Shown one piece after another: positions 31,265-40,156 of a stretch of DNA of 54,649 nucleotides. Within the stretch, counting starts at the first letter, position 1. Every line of letters starts with the position of its first letter. The notes below the pieces were generated by a model. The model worked only from the letters and a program-made list of their open reading frames with translations, did no database searches and had not been told where the DNA came from. The position numbers were made by a program, and so were the translations under genes. Source of the DNA: Opitutales bacterium (lineage in GTDB: Bacteria; Verrucomicrobiota; Verrucomicrobiia; Opitutales; Coraliomargaritaceae); contig JABBCA010000091.1 in assembly GCA_018607135.1 (NCBI GenBank), positions 90,798 through 145,446 on the forward strand, in the 5' to 3' direction.

Positions 31265-31639
31265 ATGCAGATTGCGGACTATTATCCGATACTCGTTCAG
31301 TTTACTATCGCTTCCGGTATTGGTGCGGTCGTTCTTGTCGCGTCTCATATTTTCGGACAACGCGGCACGCCCAATGCCATCAAAGATAGCCCCTATGAAT
31401 GTGGTATGTTGGCTGAAGGCTCAGGGCATGCACGTTTCGCAGTTAAGTTCTATGTGACTGCCATGTTGTTTATTTTGTTCGATATCGAGGTCGTCTTCTT
31501 GATCCCATGGGTGATGGTCTTCCGCGAATTTCTTGCCGTCAATTTACCGATTCTTCTCCCGGTTTTCTTCTTCTTGTTTGTTGTGGTCTTCGGGCTCATC
31601 TACGAGTTGAAGAAGGGCGCAATTGAGTGGGAAAAGTAA
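31265..31639 (+). CDS. nuoA: NADH-quinone oxidoreductase subunit A
   Basis: A 124-residue membrane subunit of respiratory complex I. It has three membrane helices (about 10-30, 66-86, 93-115). The conserved loop DSPYECGMLAEGSGHARFAV contains the Cys and the E-C-G signature, followed by KFYVTAMLFILFDIEVVFL with the conserved F-D-I-E-V-x-F-L-x-P-W region. No other nuo gene is beside it, so the rest of complex I must be encoded elsewhere. It ends 114 bases before the next gene; that gap holds a small hairpin (GAGTTG 31663-31668 / CAACTC 31685-31690) without a T-run. Confidence 0.95.
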   Translation: MQIADYYPILVQFTIASGIGAVVLVASHIFGQRGTPNAIKDSPYECGMLAEGSGHARFAVKFYVTAMLFILFDIEVVFLIPWVMVFREFLAVNLPILLPVFFFLFVVVFGLIYELKKGAIEWEK

Positions 31640-31753: not shown

Positions 31754-33112
31754 ATGCGCATCGACCGTTACATTGCCCAATCTCGTGTTATTGATTTAGT
31801 AAGCACTGATTTTGAGTCGGCATTGTCAGAGTTGTTAGACGTATGCGATTTCTCGAAGGAGAAGAGTTTGACTAAGAAGAAGCTACTCAACGAGCTCTTG
31901 GAGCGCGAAAAGCAGATGACAACCTACCTAGGAAATGGTGTTTGTTTACCACATGCTAGAGTGTCGATGCGCCGCCCCTACATGATCGCGGTCGGACGTT
32001 GTGCCAACGGTTTAAAATATGACGGGCAGAATGAGTATCAAGAGATTCGCTACGTATTTTTATTACTGGCTGCTAAGAATGCGCGCAGTTATTTATACGG
32101 CTTGGCGTCCTTGGCGCGGGTTTTTCAGGATCAGGCTCACATGGCTCAGCTTGAAGCTGCCAAGGAATTGCCGGCATTTCGCAAGGAGTTGAAGGCGGTC
32201 TTTGGAGGCGATGCTTCAAAGCCCAAGCGTAAACATAATCGATTTAACAATTTAATTTTAAAGGAAGCTGCAAAAATCGCTCGCGGTGCGAATTGCACAT
32301 CAGTGTTGGTTTTCGGAGATACTTTTGGAGGTGGTGTTGAAATCGGTAAGATTTTCACGGGTTTTAACACTGTGCTGATCGCGCATGCCTCTACGGACAG
32401 TATTACTGAGCATTCAGAAATCGATGCGGTGATCCCCATACGATCTTATAGCAATCACCGTTTCTCGCAATTGCGCAGTGCCGTGTTGATTGGTTTGACG
32501 CGTGGTATTTTTGGTAGTCACGACCGTTTGTGTTGTGTCGGTGGCCTGCCGCAAAGCAATCAGTTTGATAGTATCACAGTGGTCGATATCGAACGCGAAT
32601 TTCAAACAATGTTGATGCAAAAAACAGACATGCTTCCTGCGAGCGTGAAGCCAGAGGTGATTGAGCGTGTGTTGGCAATCGCGACCGAACTTGCGGTTGA
32701 GGGGCGCGAAGGGCACCCGGTAGGCTGCTTATTTGCTCTGGGTAATGCGAACAAAATATCAGAATACACCAAGCCATTGATCTTGAATCCGTTTTATGGA
32801 TACAAGGATGAAGATCGCAATATCTTGAATCCATTTATGGATGAAACGGTTAAAGAACTCTCCTCTATTGATGGAGCCTTTATCATTCGAGGTGATGGAG
32901 TTCTCGTGTCGGCAGGCTCATTGATACACGCTCCAGATTACGATCACAATTTACCTAGTGGGCTAGGGAGTCGTCACGCTGCGGCGGCATCCATCTCGCA
33001 AGCAGTGGATTGCCTATGTATTGTGGTCTCTGGCAGCACGGGGCAAGTCACGCTCTTCCGAAAGGGTGAAATGTTGCCATTGATTGAAAAAGCCTTGGTT
33101 AGGAACAGTTGA
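31754..33112 (+). CDS. PTS EIIA-like / diadenylate cyclase fusion protein
   Basis: A 452-residue soluble protein with two recognisable ends. Residues about 10-150 resemble PTS EIIA of the fructose/Ntr type: EREKQMTTYLGNGVCLPHAR places the phospho-accepting His at His67. The C-terminal ~90 residues match the DisA_N diadenylate cyclase domain: DGAFIIRGDGVLVSAGS (Asp373-Gly-Ala is the catalytic DGA), LGSRHAAAASISQAVD and CIVVSGSTGQVTLFRKG. The usual R-H-R reads Arg407-His408-Ala409. The middle (about 165-370) is alpha/beta-like, with VLVFGDTFGGGVEIGKIF, and may be a regulatory or oligomerisation domain. It would make c-di-AMP from ATP, possibly tuned by PTS phosphorylation. No membrane segment is seen. 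Its neighbours (nuoA, trpA) give no functional hint. Confidence 0.8.
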   Translation: MRIDRYIAQSRVIDLVSTDFESALSELLDVCDFSKEKSLTKKKLLNELLEREKQMTTYLGNGVCLPHARVSMRRPYMIAVGRCANGLKYDGQNEYQEIRYVFLLLAAKNARSYLYGLASLARVFQDQAHMAQLEAAKELPAFRKELKAVFGGDASKPKRKHNRFNNLILKEAAKIARGANCTSVLVFGDTFGGGVEIGKIFTGFNTVLIAHASTDSITEHSEIDAVIPIRSYSNHRFSQLRSAVLIGLTRGIFGSHDRLCCVGGLPQSNQFDSITVVDIEREFQTMLMQKTDMLPASVKPEVIERVLAIATELAVEGREGHPVGCLFALGNANKISEYTKPLILNPFYGYKDEDRNILNPFMDETVKELSSIDGAFIIRGDGVLVSAGSLIHAPDYDHNLPSGLGSRHAAAASISQAVDCLCIVVSGSTGQVTLFRKGEMLPLIEKALVRNS

Positions 33113-34291: not shown

Positions 34292-34414
34292 AATGTTTTG
34301 CATCTGAAAAGTGATTTGTTTGCTTTGTGAATAAGTCCGTTAAGCGCCTTACAAAAAGTTACTTAAAGCGCTTATTCCCAAGTTGTTCACAAATATAAAT
34401 ATGCATGTTTGCCC

Positions 34415-34444
34415 TTGACGAGTGGGGTAAAATGGGGCGATATG
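34415..34444 (+). promoter_or_regulatory. Candidate mraZ promoter
   Basis: TTGACG at 34415-34420 is a good -35. With 17-18 bases of spacing, a weak -10 falls at CGATAT or GATATG (34438-34444). The spacer contains the first two TGGGG boxes, so MraZ binding would block RNA polymerase. The -10 match is poor. Confidence 0.4.
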
Positions 34445-34457
34445 GTGTGAATTGGTT
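34423..34457 (+). promoter_or_regulatory. Proximal MraZ operator: four TGGGG-type boxes
   Basis: TGGGG at 34423, TGGGG at 34433, TGGTG at 34443 and TGGTT at 34453 recur at exact 10-base intervals. In other bacteria MraZ binds such TGGGN repeats and represses its own promoter. Placing the operator here also argues that the coding sequence starts downstream (34471), because the same bases would otherwise be inside the gene. Confidence 0.7.
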
Positions 34458-34470
34458 TAAACACGATCGA

Positions 34471-34932
34471 ATGGCGCTATTCAAAACAGGATTATTTGTG
34501 GGGACTCACCACCACAATATGGACGACAAAGGTCGTCTAACGATCCCGTCTGCGTGGCGCCCAGAGGCGGACTCCGACCAGAATTCATTTCTCGCGCTTC
34601 CGAACCCAGCAGGTTACGTAACGGTCTATCCACCAAAGATGATCGCTCAGCTTGAGGAACGTATTTCTCAAATCAGCTTGGGCGACACTGAAGGGCAGAA
34701 GGCGGTCGAAGCGTTGATGTCCATGGCGCACAGTTTCGCTTGCGACAAACAGGGACGCATCAACCTAAACGATAAGTTGGTTCAGCACGCTAAGATCGAG
34801 AAGGGTGCAGTGCTCCTCGGTAAGCTTTCCACTTTCAGCATCTACAGCGAAGAAATCTACAACGCAATTGAGGCAGCTGCACCGGTCGAGCCGGAAGCAC
34901 AAGCTGAGGTCTTCAAGCGCTTCGGTCTATAA
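34471..34932 (+). CDS. mraZ: Transcriptional regulator MraZ
   Basis: A 153-residue MraZ with two AbrB-like swapped-hairpin repeats: [17 protein letters not shown] (about 17-33) and [19 protein letters not shown] (about 89-107), each with the K-G-R-[IL] motif that contacts DNA. It is the autorepressor of the dcw cluster in other bacteria. The frame stays open to ATG 34405, but ATG 34471 gives the normal length and leaves the TGGGG operator in the leader. It lacks a clear Shine-Dalgarno sequence. Confidence 0.93.
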
Positions 34933-34951
34933 CCTGTAATTATTGAGTCTT

Positions 34952-35185
34952 ATGTCTGACGTCCTCGAAGCCATCGCCCGCGAAAATTTCCGTAGTTCTG
35001 GTTACCTTAGCCATCCATCCCGCGAGCGTCGTAAATCTTGGACTTTTTCAAAACCGCCTCGCAGCCCATTTCACTCCAACGACGCCGTCCGCGGCGCACT
35101 GAAGCGCCGTGAAAAAGCGCTTCATCGCCAACAACGCAAACCTACTTTTATCCAGACCTGTCTCAATGCCTTCCTCCACCGATGA
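34952..35185 (+). CDS. Small basic protein between mraZ and rsmH
   Basis: A 77-residue open frame from ATG 34952 to TGA at 35183-35185. It begins 19 bases after the mraZ stop and overlaps the rsmH start by 20 bases. The protein is strongly basic and rich in Arg, Ser and Lys (SHPSRERRKSWTFSK; GALKRREKALHRQQRKPTF), with no membrane segment. I do not recognise a family. The position inside a tightly packed operon and a reasonable codon pattern argue that it is real, but I cannot rule out a chance frame. Confidence 0.5.
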   Translation: MSDVLEAIARENFRSSGYLSHPSRERRKSWTFSKPPRSPFHSNDAVRGALKRREKALHRQQRKPTFIQTCLNAFLHR

Positions 35186-36122
35186 TGCGTTAACCTCTGC
35201 TGCTTCAAGTGGCCATGTTCCAGTCTTGCTCGCCGAGACATTGGAGCTGCTGGCTCCTCGCGCAGGTGCAACCATTCTTGACGGAACATTTGGCGGCGGC
35301 GGCCATACACGAGCGATACTCGAATCTGCGGACGATGTTACGGTGGTTGCATTGGATCGAGATCCTGCAGCGATCGAACGCTCCGCAACGATCCAAGCTG
35401 AATACGGCGACCGCTTTCGTATTCATCAAATAAACTTTGGAGATCTTGCGGATCTGAATGAGACTGGTTTCAACGGTATTCTGTTTGATTTTGGCTTGTC
35501 CTCATTTCAGCTAGACACTGCAGAGCGCGGGTTTTCATTCCGCTCAGATGCACCTGCCGACATGCGTATGAATCCAGATATTGGAATCAGCGCTGCCGAA
35601 TTTCTTGAAACCGCAGATAACGAATCTTTAGTCCGTGCGATTCGCAACTATGGCGAAGAGAAACGCTGGCGCCGAGTCGTCGAGAATATCGTCAAAGCAC
35701 GCGGCACAGGACTATTGCAACGCACGCATTCGCTGGCCGAGTTGATCAAAGAGGCCGTGGGCCCGACTCCGCGCGGTCGCAAGGCAGTGCATCCAGCGAC
35801 ACGAACTTTTCAGGGTATTAGAGTTGAGATAAATGATGAGTTGAGCGCGATCGAGCGTGGCTTACCAGCTGCGTTCGATCGTCTCTTACCAGGCGGCGTG
35901 CTCGCCGCGATCAGTTTTCACTCTCTCGAAGACCGTATTGTAAAACGCTTCTGCCGTAAGATGGCAGGTCGTCCAGAGCATTCAGGTGACTATCGCACAC
36001 AGGATGAACGCACTGTGCTCGCGAAAATGATTTCCACTCGCCCAGTCGCCCCATCGGAAGAAGAAATTCGCGTCAACCCCCGCAGTCGCAGTTCACGCTT
36101 ACGCGCGATTCGTAAACTTTAA
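35166..36122 (+). CDS. rsmH: 16S rRNA (cytosine-N4)-methyltransferase RsmH
   Basis: A 318-residue RsmH (MraW), which methylates N4 of C1402 in 16S rRNA with S-adenosylmethionine. The SAM site LDGTFGGGGHTRAILES, the LFDFGLSSFQLDTAERGFSF segment and the C-terminal ISFHSLEDRIVKRF are all diagnostic; RVEINDELSAIERGLPAAF is also typical. The frame is open further upstream to 35109, but ATG 35166 gives the normal length. It overlaps the small basic ORF by 20 bases, consistent with coupled translation in the dcw cluster. Confidence 0.96.
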   Translation: MPSSTDDALTSAASSGHVPVLLAETLELLAPRAGATILDGTFGGGGHTRAILESADDVTVVALDRDPAAIERSATIQAEYGDRFRIHQINFGDLADLNETGFNGILFDFGLSSFQLDTAERGFSFRSDAPADMRMNPDIGISAAEFLETADNESLVRAIRNYGEEKRWRRVVENIVKARGTGLLQRTHSLAELIKEAVGPTPRGRKAVHPATRTFQGIRVEINDELSAIERGLPAAFDRLLPGGVLAAISFHSLEDRIVKRFCRKMAGRPEHSGDYRTQDERTVLAKMISTRPVAPSEEEIRVNPRSRSSRLRAIRKL

Positions 36123-36145
36123 TAAACAAGCAGCCAGCATCTACT

Positions 36146-36523
36146 ATGAACAACATGTCCGCCCAGTCTCGCAAACGTATCTACCTATTAGTGGTATCCA
36201 TGATCGCCATCACCGTAATGAGCGCTTTTGCGATTGTATGGATGCAGCAGCAGATCTCTCGCACTGCGCAAAATAGCAAAGAGAATGAAGCGAAGCTCGC
36301 CGACACGGTTCGCAAGCTTCGTTACCTTGACGAGCGTATCGCTACCTTGCACCAGCCTGTGGTGTTACAGGGCAAAGTCGCGGGTGTGCTCCGTCCGTCG
36401 TTGGACGATCAACTGGTTTGGGTGAATGAGAAAAGTGTCGCGACTGGTCGCGCCTATGCGCTCTCCGCACCTTACGAAGTTTCCATGGATCTCGCTCTAC
36501 TCGATATTGACGCGAAGCGCTAA
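36146..36523 (+). CDS. ftsL: FtsL-like division protein
   Basis: A 125-residue bitopic protein placed between rsmH and ftsI, where FtsL is normally found. It has a short cytoplasmic N-terminus (NMSAQSRKR), one membrane helix (IYLLVVSMIAITVMSAFAIV, about 12-31) and then a coiled-coil region (QQQISRTAQNSKENEAKLAD, continuing to about residue 70). The remaining ~55 residues form a C-terminal extension not usual for FtsL. Sequence similarity among FtsL proteins is low, so the assignment rests on topology, size and position. FtsL links FtsB/FtsQ to FtsW/FtsI. Confidence 0.65.
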   Translation: MNNMSAQSRKRIYLLVVSMIAITVMSAFAIVWMQQQISRTAQNSKENEAKLADTVRKLRYLDERIATLHQPVVLQGKVAGVLRPSLDDQLVWVNEKSVATGRAYALSAPYEVSMDLALLDIDAKR

Positions 36524-36555
36524 GCCTTGCGTTTAACAGCCAACCCACACGCATC

Positions 36556-36777
36556 ATGCACATTACATCTAGTTATTATCGTTGTCGTCAGCATCAAGAC
36601 ACCCTCGATCTTGGAGTGGGTGGTGGATTTGCGCGTGCGGTGGATCAAGCCGCACTCGATGCAGAACCGAAATGCTGCCCATGGCCAAAAAACGAGAAAC
36701 CGCTCAGCCCATCTAAGCGAACCCTTCAACGTCTCGCTCGTCGTTACAACTCTATCCACAAAGACCAAGTCGCCTAA
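36556..36777 (+). CDS. Small ORF between ftsL-like gene and ftsI
   Basis: A 73-residue frame from ATG 36556 to TAA 36777, ending 9 bases before ftsI. Codon use (CGT, CTC, GTC and GCC rich) is like the neighbours. The product is basic, with one Cys pair (KCCPWPK) and the C-terminal segment KRTLQRLARRYNSI. I do not recognise it. Its size and position suggest a small division-related protein, but this is inference, and a chance frame remains possible. It does not overlap either neighbour. Confidence 0.45.
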   Translation: MHITSSYYRCRQHQDTLDLGVGGGFARAVDQAALDAEPKCCPWPKNEKPLSPSKRTLQRLARRYNSIHKDQVA

Positions 36778-36786
36778 CCGTGCTCT

Positions 36787-38601
36787 ATGAGTAAAGCCTT
36801 CGTTTCCACCTATCGTGCATCGCTCGTCTCGTGCGCCGTCGCTTTTGCGTTCTGCGTGCTGCTCGGTCGTTTGTTCTATTTGCACGTTTGGGAGCAAGAG
36901 GAGCTCATGGAGCATGTGTCAAGTAACCGCAAAATGGTCACTGTTGTCGAAGCGCGACGTGGTAATATCGTAGATTCTCGCGGTAACTTATTGGCGACGA
37001 CACGCACGGCCTACGATATCGGAGTGGATCCTCAGGCCTTTCGTGAGTCTGATCGCGAGAAGCTGATTGAGCTCGCATCTATTCTTGGCAAGCCACTCGC
37101 AGACATTGAACATTTGATTGATACGAAGACTCGAAAGGGAAGTGAGCATGCCAAAGAAGTTCGCTTGATTCGTTGGGCTGCATTGGCAAAGGATGTGGAT
37201 GAAGCGACTAACGATGCTGTCCGCGAACTCGGGATTCGTGGAGTGTATGGAAATAGTAAATACAGTCGCGCTTACCCCGCAGGTAAGCTTGCGGCACATG
37301 TATTAGGCTATGTAAACAAAGAAGAAACTCCAGTCACAGGTATTGAGCGCTTTTTCGATTATTACTTACGTGGACAAGATGGTTGGCGTGAATCAGAAAA
37401 AGACGGAAAGCGTCGGGAGCTCGCAGAATTTCGCGAACGTGAAGTGGAACCCTCTGATGGGTTGAACGTGGAATTGAGCATCGATCAAATGGTGCAACAC
37501 ATCGTGGAGGCCGAAGTGACACGTCTTGCAGAGGAGTATAATCCAAACGGTATCAGTGTGATCGTGAGTGAGCCTTCAACAGGTGCGGTTTTAGCGATGG
37601 CAAATTATCCAACCTACGATCCGAACGAGTTTTTCAATACGAAAAAATATCCGATCGAGTCGCAACGTAACCGTGCGCTCACTGACATTTACGAACCAGG
37701 ATCTACATTCAAGATTGTATCTGCTGCGGGCGTATTGAATGAGGGCTTAGTGACTCCAGACGATATTTTTCAAACAGGCGTTTCGCGAGTGAGTTACAAG
37801 GGACGTTCGTTAAAGCTTCCCAGTGACCACCATGTGTATGAAAAACTGACCACTAAAGAAATCGTCGTGAAGTCTAGCAATCGCGGTGCGGCTCACTTTG
37901 GCTTAATGCTTGGTGAGCATCGTTTGCACGACTATGCAGCGGCTTTTGGTTTTGGTGAAAAGACTGGTTGTGATCTTGGTGGCGAAGTATCTGGAACCTT
38001 ACACAAGGTGAAGAACTGGGATGGTTTGACCATTACACGTATGCCGATGGGCCACGCGATTAGTGCGACTCCTATGCAAGTGCACACCGCGATGTCCGTG
38101 ATTGCAAATGATGGCGTGCTGATGGAGCCACTGCTCACTAAACGTATTTTTGATTCAACAGGCTCGGATGTAATCCGCTTTTCTCCAAAAGCGAAGCGTC
38201 GAGTCGTATCCACAGAAGTGGCTGAAACGATGAGTGAAATGCTTGCCGCAGTCGTTGGTGAGAAGGGCACAGCTCGTAAGGCTGCGGTCGAAAACTACAT
38301 GGTCGCGGGTAAAACGGGCACCACGCAGAAGATCATAGATGGGAAATATTCACGCCAACATCACGTCGCGTCTTTCAGCGGATTCTTCCCCGCAGATAAT
38401 CCTGCACTCGTGATCACAGTGGTCGTGGATGAACCCAAATTTAATGGTGTCGGTTACGGAGGTTCCGTATCGGCCCCAGCTTTCCGTAATATCGCGGAGG
38501 CATGTATCGCTTACCTAGGCATTCGCTCCTCACGTCAGGACATCGCTTATCAACCTTCTTCCATTTCTATCTATGATCGGACTCGCCGACTTTCAAATTA
38601 G
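36787..38601 (+). CDS. ftsI: Septal transpeptidase FtsI (class B PBP)
   Basis: A 604-residue penicillin-binding protein with one N-terminal membrane helix (SLVSCAVAFAFCVLLGRLF). A PBP dimerisation domain (about 45-230) has the conserved RRGNIVDSRGNLLA. The transpeptidase domain carries the catalytic S-x-x-K at Ser306-Lys309 (EPGSTFKI), S-x-N at 363-365 (VKSSNRG) and K-T-G at 509-511 (VAGKTGTTQ). It cross-links septal peptidoglycan with FtsW. No C-terminal PASTA domain is seen. The start ATG is 9 bases after the preceding small ORF. Confidence 0.95.
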   Translation: MSKAFVSTYRASLVSCAVAFAFCVLLGRLFYLHVWEQEELMEHVSSNRKMVTVVEARRGNIVDSRGNLLATTRTAYDIGVDPQAFRESDREKLIELASILGKPLADIEHLIDTKTRKGSEHAKEVRLIRWAALAKDVDEATNDAVRELGIRGVYGNSKYSRAYPAGKLAAHVLGYVNKEETPVTGIERFFDYYLRGQDGWRESEKDGKRRELAEFREREVEPSDGLNVELSIDQMVQHIVEAEVTRLAEEYNPNGISVIVSEPSTGAVLAMANYPTYDPNEFFNTKKYPIESQRNRALTDIYEPGSTFKIVSAAGVLNEGLVTPDDIFQTGVSRVSYKGRSLKLPSDHHVYEKLTTKEIVVKSSNRGAAHFGLMLGEHRLHDYAAAFGFGEKTGCDLGGEVSGTLHKVKNWDGLTITRMPMGHAISATPMQVHTAMSVIANDGVLMEPLLTKRIFDSTGSDVIRFSPKAKRRVVSTEVAETMSEMLAAVVGEKGTARKAAVENYMVAGKTGTTQKIIDGKYSRQHHVASFSGFFPADNPALVITVVVDEPKFNGVGYGGSVSAPAFRNIAEACIAYLGIRSSRQDIAYQPSSISIYDRTRRLSN

Positions 38602-38686
38602 CACACTGCTTTCAGCTGCCAGCTCTCGACAATCTTACTCACGTCTAAACGCTTCGAACCACGCACATTGTGATCGCCGTCTACAG

Positions 38687-40156
38687 ATGAACCCTTCTTT
38701 GACTCAGTTGCTGCAAGGGGTAGAGTTTGATTTGCATAAGAAGCGCAATGAATCAGAGGTCACCTGCTTGATTACGGACAGTCGTCGCGTCGTGCCAGGA
38801 GCCTTGTTTTTCGCGATTGGAGGTCTACGCACAGACGGGAATCACTTTGTAGAAGAAGCGGTGGATCGTGGGGCAGTGGCAATTGTCACCGAGCAGGATT
38901 TGGGTGCTCATTTTCCAATTGATTATGTGAAGGTGAAGGATGTGCGTCAGGCACTAGCCGAGATTTCTCGCGAGTTTTATGGTCGCCCTGATCAGAAGCT
39001 ACGTATTTCTGGCATCACTGGAACGAATGGTAAGACTACGGTTTCGATGCTGACTCAGCACCTCATTGGAGGAAGTGATAAAGTCGGTCTTATTGGCACG
39101 ATCCGCTACGACATTGGTAAGCGCACTTTACCATCGTATCGAACCACTCCCGAGTCGGTGGATGCGTTTGCTTTGCTTGGGCAAATGGTCTCTAATGGCT
39201 GCGAAGAAGCAGTCATGGAAGTGAGTTCGCACGGCATCGATCAAAAGCGCGTGTATGGCTTAGATATTGATGTCGCGGTGTTTCTTAATTTGACACGCGA
39301 CCATATTGATTATCACAAGTCGATGGAGGCGTATTACGAAGTAAAGAAGTGTCTTTTTACTGGTGGAGTGGGTGCCAAGCCAAAAGCGGGTGTGATCAAT
39401 ATTGATTGCCCTTATGGCCGGCGTTTACACGGCGAATTACCCGGTGGTTTACCTGTTGTAACTTTTGGTATGGCTGAAAATGCGATCATTTATGCCAGTA
39501 ATATACAACTCTACGCGGATCGCACTGAGTTTGATTTATCTTGGCCAGAGGGACAGGCGACCGTGGTCTCTCCGCTGCTTGGGCGGTATAATGTGAGTAA
39601 CTTGCTTGCGGCGCTAGCGACTGGACGTGCGAAAGGCTACGAGATTGCTGAATTACTTTTACGCTTAAAATCATTTCCAGGGGTTCCAGGTCGCATGGAA
39701 ACCGTGCAAAAGAGTCAGCCATTTAATGTATTGGTAGACTATGCGCATACCGATGACGCGATGAAGCTTGCTTGTGAAATGTTAAGTGAAATTACTGAGG
39801 GCAAGCTGATCGTAGTATTCGGTTGTGGGGGGGATCGAGATCGCACCAAACGTGCTCCGATGCTTGAGGCAGCGCTCCAAGGAGCTGATATGGTATTTGC
39901 GACTTCGGACAACCCGCGTTCAGAATCCATCGACCAAATTTTCAATGATATGCGTGAGGCAAAAGACTCTTCGAAGGCGCAGTTTATTGACGACCGCAAA
40001 CGTGCGATCTCGTTGGCGCTTGATGCTGCTCTTCCGGGTGACTGCGTTCTGATTGCAGGCAAAGGGCACGAGACGTATCAGGAGTTTGATGGATCGGTAA
40101 TGCCTTTTGACGATGCCAATATCGCGCGCGAACTTCTGAGTCTGAAGGGTTACTGA
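38687..40156 (+). CDS. murE: UDP-MurNAc-tripeptide synthetase (meso-DAP type)
   Basis: A 489-residue Mur ligase that adds the third residue to UDP-MurNAc-L-Ala-D-Glu. The ATP loop GITGTNGKTTVSML, the N-x-T-x-D-H motif (LNLTRDHIDYH), the carbamylated-lysine region and the signature VDYAHTDDAM are present. The D-N-P-R motif (ATSDNPRSES) marks the meso-diaminopimelate-adding class, so the wall should contain mDAP. The frame stays open to 38573 inside ftsI, but ATG 38687 matches the family start and length. The 85-base gap to ftsI is unremarkable. Confidence 0.96.
   Translation: MNPSLTQLLQGVEFDLHKKRNESEVTCLITDSRRVVPGALFFAIGGLRTDGNHFVEEAVDRGAVAIVTEQDLGAHFPIDYVKVKDVRQALAEISREFYGRPDQKLRISGITGTNGKTTVSMLTQHLIGGSDKVGLIGTIRYDIGKRTLPSYRTTPESVDAFALLGQMVSNGCEEAVMEVSSHGIDQKRVYGLDIDVAVFLNLTRDHIDYHKSMEAYYEVKKCLFTGGVGAKPKAGVINIDCPYGRRLHGELPGGLPVVTFGMAENAIIYASNIQLYADRTEFDLSWPEGQATVVSPLLGRYNVSNLLAALATGRAKGYEIAELLLRLKSFPGVPGRMETVQKSQPFNVLVDYAHTDDAMKLACEMLSEITEGKLIVVFGCGGDRDRTKRAPMLEAALQGADMVFATSDNPRSESIDQIFNDMREAKDSSKAQFIDDRKRAISLALDAALPGDCVLIAGKGHETYQEFDGSVMPFDDANIARELLSLKGY

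Follow-up and report, generated by a model that had tools for sequence, protein, structure and literature searches.

For most diadenylate cyclases no controlling signal is known, to our knowledge. One class of these enzymes, DacD, reportedly goes back to the 2013 review by Corrigan and Gruendling. A legend in PMC6741144 names DacD members from Coraliomargarita, Puniceicoccaceae, Opitutae, Verrucomicrobia and Lacunisphaera, which is the lineage of the nearest relatives of the protein described here, the link between the class and this protein being one of taxon. According to PMC6741144, the archaeal enzymes DacZ and CdaZ have an N-terminal fold in common that resembles the C-terminal domain of pyruvate kinase (PK_C). 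In DacZ and CdaZ (DacY) this domain is followed by a diadenylate cyclase (DAC) domain without the RHR motif.

In phosphotransferase systems (PTS), potassium homeostasis is called a unifying theme of PTS-Ntr (PMC13104625). Unphosphorylated PtsN (EIIA-Ntr) of E. coli, which is a separate protein, inhibits the CPA1 antiporter YcgO with its putative RCK domain (PMC11808508).

A 2023 survey of DAC architectures is cited in PMC13092281, and this survey (Galperin) may list the fusion of an EIIA domain to a cyclase. The architecture is probably an already catalogued kind, with 'DacD' members from Opitutae in the legend of PMC6741144. Among the titles and abstract openings of the open-licence literature, no paper was found on the function of an EIIA-cyclase fusion or on a relay from the PTS to c-di-AMP, and the system that accompanies the cyclase in its genome (EI, HPr and HprK, two PF00359 EIIA domains and no PF02378 permease) is the new part of the present finding.

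Domain composition of the fusion protein

The window, i.e. the whole stretch of 54,649 nucleotides that was analysed, contains a gene in which an EIIA domain, a DacZ_P domain and a DAC domain are read in one frame. The relevant features are as follows.

31265 to 31639, forward strand: nuoA, for subunit A of complex I, next to the fusion gene on its upstream side
31754 to 33112, forward strand: EIIA-DacZ_P-DAC fusion, 452 amino acids in a single frame
31841 to 32191, forward strand: PTS_EIIA_2 domain, residues 30-146 (Pfam E 2.3e-20, 73.5 bits, cut-off 27)
31952 to 31954, forward strand: codon of His67, aligned with the histidine of the PtsN PH motif
32090 to 32092, forward strand: codon of Tyr113, which in the alignment stands opposite the second active-site histidine of PtsN
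32237 to 32608, forward strand: DacZ_P (PF21755), residues 162-285 (Pfam E 2.7e-19, 69.5 bits, cut-off 27.4)
32693 to 33070, forward strand: DAC / DisA_N (PF02457), residues 314-439 (Pfam E 2.1e-20, 72.9 bits, cut-off 27)
32870 to 32878, forward strand: DGA motif, residues 373-375
32972 to 32980, forward strand: R-H-A, residues 407-409, counterpart of the RHR motif in this family

An earlier note, made from the sequence of this DNA, had described one protein with an EIIA-like domain and a DisA_N cyclase domain, and this description holds. All three Pfam domains score above their curated cut-offs, so that the profile search which the note had proposed for the three parts of the protein returns EIIA, DacZ_P and DAC, and the identities of the EIIA and DAC domains are backed by profile, solved-structure and fold matches alike. 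The motifs lie where the note had placed them: LPHAR with His67, DGA at 373-375, GSRH at 405-408 and R-H-A at 407-409. In a fold search with the predicted structure, residues 1-153 resemble PtsN (1a6j: Z 18.3, rmsd 2.4, 145 aligned), and residues from about 295 to 445 resemble DisA/CdaA (9y4s: Z 14.6, rmsd 2.5, 129 aligned; 8c4n: Z 14.2, rmsd 2.8, 129 aligned). The structure model that had been suggested alongside therefore bears out the folds of the domains but not their arrangement: the full-length AlphaFold2 model, which was built from an input alignment of 27 sequences, is of middling confidence (pLDDT 72, pTM 0.43), and with such a pTM the domains can be read whereas their packing cannot, so the model was not used for packing.

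The middle part, which the note had called an uncharacterised alpha/beta region, turns out to be DacZ_P, described in Pfam as a 'probable sensor domain', with the fold of the pyruvate kinase C-terminal domain. Folded alone, it gives a better model (pLDDT 79, pTM 0.74). With VIA-align, all 50 matches listed for the isolated domain are pyruvate kinases, and the part matched is the C-terminal domain of the kinase (best: Z 14.4, rmsd 3.3, 123 aligned, 11% identity). With Foldseek, pyruvate kinases make up 48 of the 50 matches listed (best of these E 8.0e-6), and the other two, the first and third of the 50, are chains of 3khd, whose title is a gene name and gives no enzyme. This fold match agrees with the PK_C-like fold given for DacZ and CdaZ in PMC6741144. 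The fusion protein thus has a PK_C-like domain N-terminal to DAC, an arrangement that it shares with the DacZ superfamily. Among NCBIfam models DacZ is indeed the best match, but at 111 bits it falls far below the equivalog cut-off of 430, and that model spans 270 positions without EIIA, whereas the fusion protein has one. By profile score, the protein is a DacZ relative and not an equivalog.

Conservation of the fusion

In a collection with one genome per species, 28 loci encode a full-length or nearly full-length relative with 50-92% identity; not all 28 sequences are distinct, and one (L028) reaches residue 416. With so many relatives of full or nearly full length, the fusion is no product of assembly and no chance join. 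By title, those closest to the protein come from Opitutae, Opitutales, Puniceicoccaceae and Coraliomargarita. Gene order is kept as well: nuoA lies just upstream in 28/28 of these loci and trpA downstream in 18/28, some loci being cut short. Judged by sequence, the EIIA-DacZ_P-DAC architecture runs through the order, and DacZ_P itself is found in 39 of 188 genomes of the class and in 67 of 387 genomes of the phylum (65 over the cut-off). In one genome (G130) the stretch compared had no BLAST match at 1e-5.

A short DacZ_P-DAC type without EIIA also exists in two genomes, in frames of 300 and 320 amino acids (L149 in G179 and L139 in G224) in which DGG replaces DGA. G179 has this short type besides a fused cyclase.

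The cyclase domain and its R-H-A motif

Two alignments were used. In the first, dropping identical rows reduced 60 rows to 55; in the wider one, which includes truncated and distant rows, dropping rows alike in the last 200 residues reduced 123 rows to 109. D373, G374, R407 and H408 are invariant in 55/55 and in 109/109 rows, and G405 in 55/55. The third residue of DGA is alanine in 101 of the 109 rows. The residue after R-H is alanine in 86 of the 109 and arginine in none, and it is histidine (R-H-H) in two haloarchaeal DacZ proteins. According to PMC6741144, DacZ of Haloferax volcanii, whose own motif lies outside this comparison, is an active cyclase that makes c-di-AMP with Mn2+.

The earlier note had taken R-H-A in place of R-H-R as a reason to doubt activity, and a cyclase impaired in this way would make the whole protein a pseudo-enzyme. 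The third motif residue is certainly unlike that of CdaA in the alignments. However, the arginine is absent from all 109 rows while R-H is invariant, and DacZ of Haloferax is active. R-H-A therefore does not mark the enzyme as dead. In addition, the genome, which is 3.53 Mb in size and 99.98% complete, has no DAC match in the profile search besides the fusion protein itself. The doubt is thus not supported, and the pseudo-enzyme was rejected on the motif columns of the 109 rows together with the haloarchaeal R-H-H; we regard it as very improbable indeed. In this branch, the third arginine of RHR does not seem to be required.

The EIIA domain, His67 and Tyr113

For the N-terminal domain, PtsN is nearest both in fold and in sequence, and the position of the phospho-acceptor is filled, His67 aligning with the histidine of the PtsN PH motif, which is thus kept. 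P66, H67 and R69 are invariant in the 55 distinct rows of the first alignment. In the wider alignment, position 67 is histidine in 92 of 109 rows, a gap in nine and another residue in eight, i.e. histidine in 92 of 100 ungapped rows, and nine outgroup proteins with 29-39% identity are among those that keep it. One of the eight rows counted as other than histidine is G301, whose frame aligns with the query from residue 168 onward, so that its residue in column 67 is not an EIIA residue. Six genomes have Tyr, Ser or Cys in place of His67 in a protein that is otherwise full-length, and EI was shown in four of the six. In family f56 the residue is Tyr in 3/3 genomes, with EI and HPr present, and one of these (G211) has no further EIIA_2 besides that of the Tyr67 cyclase. 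In family f3, G150 has Ser at this position, with EI and HPr present and an EIIA match of 26.6 bits, just below the Pfam cut-off; two further f3 cyclases without His67 (G183, Ser; G450, Cys) lie outside the EI survey.

Apart from carrying a cyclase, the fusion differs from PtsN at Tyr113, which aligns with a residue that we take to be the second active-site histidine of PtsN. In the 100 ungapped rows this column holds Tyr in 88, Phe in seven, Leu in two, His in two and Arg in one, the two histidines belonging to an outgroup protein (G463) and a degenerate one (G214). In EIIA-Glc, loss of the second histidine blocks onward transfer of the phosphate but not its acceptance. By analogy, the tyrosine in place of the second PtsN histidine suggests that the fused EIIA may be a terminal acceptor, one that takes and keeps the phosphate.

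Phosphotransferase components in the same genome

The genome encodes one EI with three EI domains and the motif GGKTSH, one HPr with the sites GIHARPAA and KSIMGL, and one HprK with a P-loop. In PTS-Ntr, EI carries a GAF domain (PtsP). Here, the Pfam scan (E up to 0.001) of the EI frame of 606 amino acids gives the three EI domains alone, with no GAF or other sensor domain, which is a further difference from the system of PtsN. No permease of the PF02378 type (EIIC) and no EIIA-man were found in this genome, the search for permeases and EIIA having covered PF02378, PF00359 and EIIA-man. At L167:471-2625 (genome G000, contig C43), the HPr gene follows, in the same orientation and after about 0.5 kb, the gene of an MgtE-type divalent-cation transporter with a CBS domain.

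Two EIIA_2 (PF00359) domains are present, that of the cyclase and a second one, which forms the C-terminus of a 749-amino-acid Na_H_Exchanger-TrkA_N-EIIA protein (L148:3012-5261, genome G000, contig C35). In E. coli, EIIA acts on the CPA1 antiporter as a separate protein (PMC11808508), whereas here and in seven other genomes it is fused to an antiporter-like protein; from its domain order, the latter reads as a fused form of the PtsN-YcgO partnership with a CPA1-type antiporter. The Pfam domains are those of the copy in this genome, and among 14 loci of 12 genomes that were compared, eight loci in eight genomes, this one included, hold a relative over most of the length.

Survey of the order

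The survey covered a sample of 52 genomes of the order, with EI in 41, HPr in 44, HprK in 43, EIIA_2 in 43, DAC in 47, PF02378 in five and EIIA-man in none. EI thus occurs without a PF02378-type permease in 36 of the 41 genomes that bear it. EI and DAC occur together in 37 genomes. In 36 of these an EIIA is part of the cyclase (with His67 in 32, Tyr in three and Ser in one), and the cyclase of the remaining genome has none. In 22 of the 37 (21 with His, one with Tyr), the cyclase carries the sole EIIA found, where 'sole' refers to EIIA_2 (PF00359). None of these 22 genomes has a PF02378 match, and HPr was not found in two of them (G195, G204). Of the 15 genomes with a second EIIA_2, at least eight have one fused to a cation antiporter.

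In the ten DAC-positive genomes in which EI was not found, His67 is kept in five, the EIIA domain is gone in three and degenerate in one, and in one the cyclase is cut by a contig end. This last genome (G197) has, at the end of a different contig (L169), an EIIA frame that includes a PH motif; the two pieces are unjoined, and the genome was left out of the trait tests. Three of the five genomes that keep the histidine (G193, G207, G210) have neither EI nor HprK that could be found, and in two of these three R69 is changed to Lys; the other two are G199 and G215. The EIIA domain is therefore recognisable in 36/37 EI-positive and in 5/9 scoreable EI-negative cyclases.

If the genomes are treated as unrelated, retention of the EIIA domain goes with presence of EI (Fisher p 0.0035), and retention of the histidine shows p 0.058. 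On the tree, however, the joint loss of EI and EIIA does not reach significance, the independent-pairs test being without power (median p 1), and formal co-loss was therefore dropped as evidence. This tree was built from the rest of the protein without EIIA (leaving out the second DAC of G213) and has six long branches of unsure placement. Moreover, the four EI-less genomes without a sound EIIA domain are 0.8-1.0 Mb in size, which makes genome reduction a confounder of the co-loss.

Proposed mechanism and alternatives

On this basis, we think it somewhat probable that the protein, a member of the DacZ superfamily, is active as a diadenylate cyclase and that a regulatory PTS driven by phosphoenolpyruvate (PEP) sets its output. 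In such a relay, EI would draw phosphate from PEP and HPr would hand it on to His67 of the fused EIIA, and the phosphorylation state would alter cyclase activity, in one direction or the other, by way of the pyruvate-kinase-like domain in the middle, for which a metabolite may also serve as ligand. The level of c-di-AMP would thereby reflect the PEP:pyruvate (energy/carbon) state, and c-di-AMP would act on potassium and osmotic balance. The earlier note had supposed control by carbon or nitrogen status through EIIA. Of this, control by the PTS is plausible in view of EI, HPr, HprK, the conserved histidine and the absence of PF02378, but nitrogen is not specially supported, since EI has no sensor domain besides its three EI domains. 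For the output, potassium is the better guess. A c-di-AMP riboswitch was considered as output and rejected, no Rfam family reaching the gathering score in the window and RF00379 not being found in 51 of the 52 genomes under strict filters with at most 50 candidates scored per genome; the single match is in G202 (L166 / L170), which is 50% complete and has no DAC match.

PTS regulation is put conditionally here because four genomes keep EI yet have lost the histidine and because the co-loss is not significant on the tree. Indeed, counter-evidence to the relay comes from both sides: f56 and G150 have EI and HPr but not the phospho-acceptor, while G193, G199, G207, G210 and G215 keep the histidine with no EI found. 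Such cases would suit an EIIA domain that is a structural or docking module, binding a partner or setting the oligomeric state, in which phosphorylation of His67 is not the main signal. The six genomes with an otherwise full-length protein but no His67 (four with EI), and the three that keep the domain with neither EI nor HprK found, fit such a module, and PtsN too acts through binding (PMC13104625; PMC11808508). This reading is nevertheless rather unlikely in our view, given that 92 of 100 ungapped rows, the nine outgroups included, and all 55 rows of the first set have histidine at position 67. Another use of the domain would be in trans, with a constitutive cyclase and an EIIA end that regulates K+ transport as PtsN does. 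Any PtsN-like duty would fall to the cyclase EIIA in the 22 of 37 genomes where it is the only EIIA_2 found, and the other EIIA of the present genome sits on an antiporter; yet the fusion in cis is kept across the order sample, of which control of the cyclase is the simpler reading, and we hold regulation in trans to be quite improbable.

The cyclase under PTS control also admits a wider formulation, which is tentative and in which we place slightly more doubt than belief. Throughout the Opitutales, the PTS might be a relay from PEP to a second messenger and not a means of sugar uptake, with the cyclase as its main, and often only, EIIA_2 acceptor; EIIA and the pyruvate-kinase C-domain, joined in one polypeptide, would set c-di-AMP and thereby connect energy state to potassium homeostasis. 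That the sole recognisable c-di-AMP synthase is fused to EIIA and to a pyruvate-kinase-like domain suggests that energy metabolism may set the messenger directly, and the protein would have a candidate cyclase signal built into it. If true, the relay would (i) tie c-di-AMP to PEP status by a direct chemical route, (ii) account for the retention of EI without a PF02378-type permease in 36 of the 41 genomes of the order sample that bear EI and (iii) let the literatures on PtsN and K+ and on c-di-AMP and K+ meet in one molecule.

Other observations on the locus

An origin from phage or defence systems was considered and set aside, since neither PADLOC (E 0.01) nor PHROGs (E 0.001) gave a family match. 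One locus (L011), filed under a Pseudomonadales metagenome-assembled genome, has a cyclase and neighbours of the Opitutales type and is probably a misbinned contig. Downstream of trpA, positions 34405-40156 of the window hold mraZ, rsmH, a penicillin-binding transpeptidase and a Mur ligase, which is the start of a division and cell-wall cluster.
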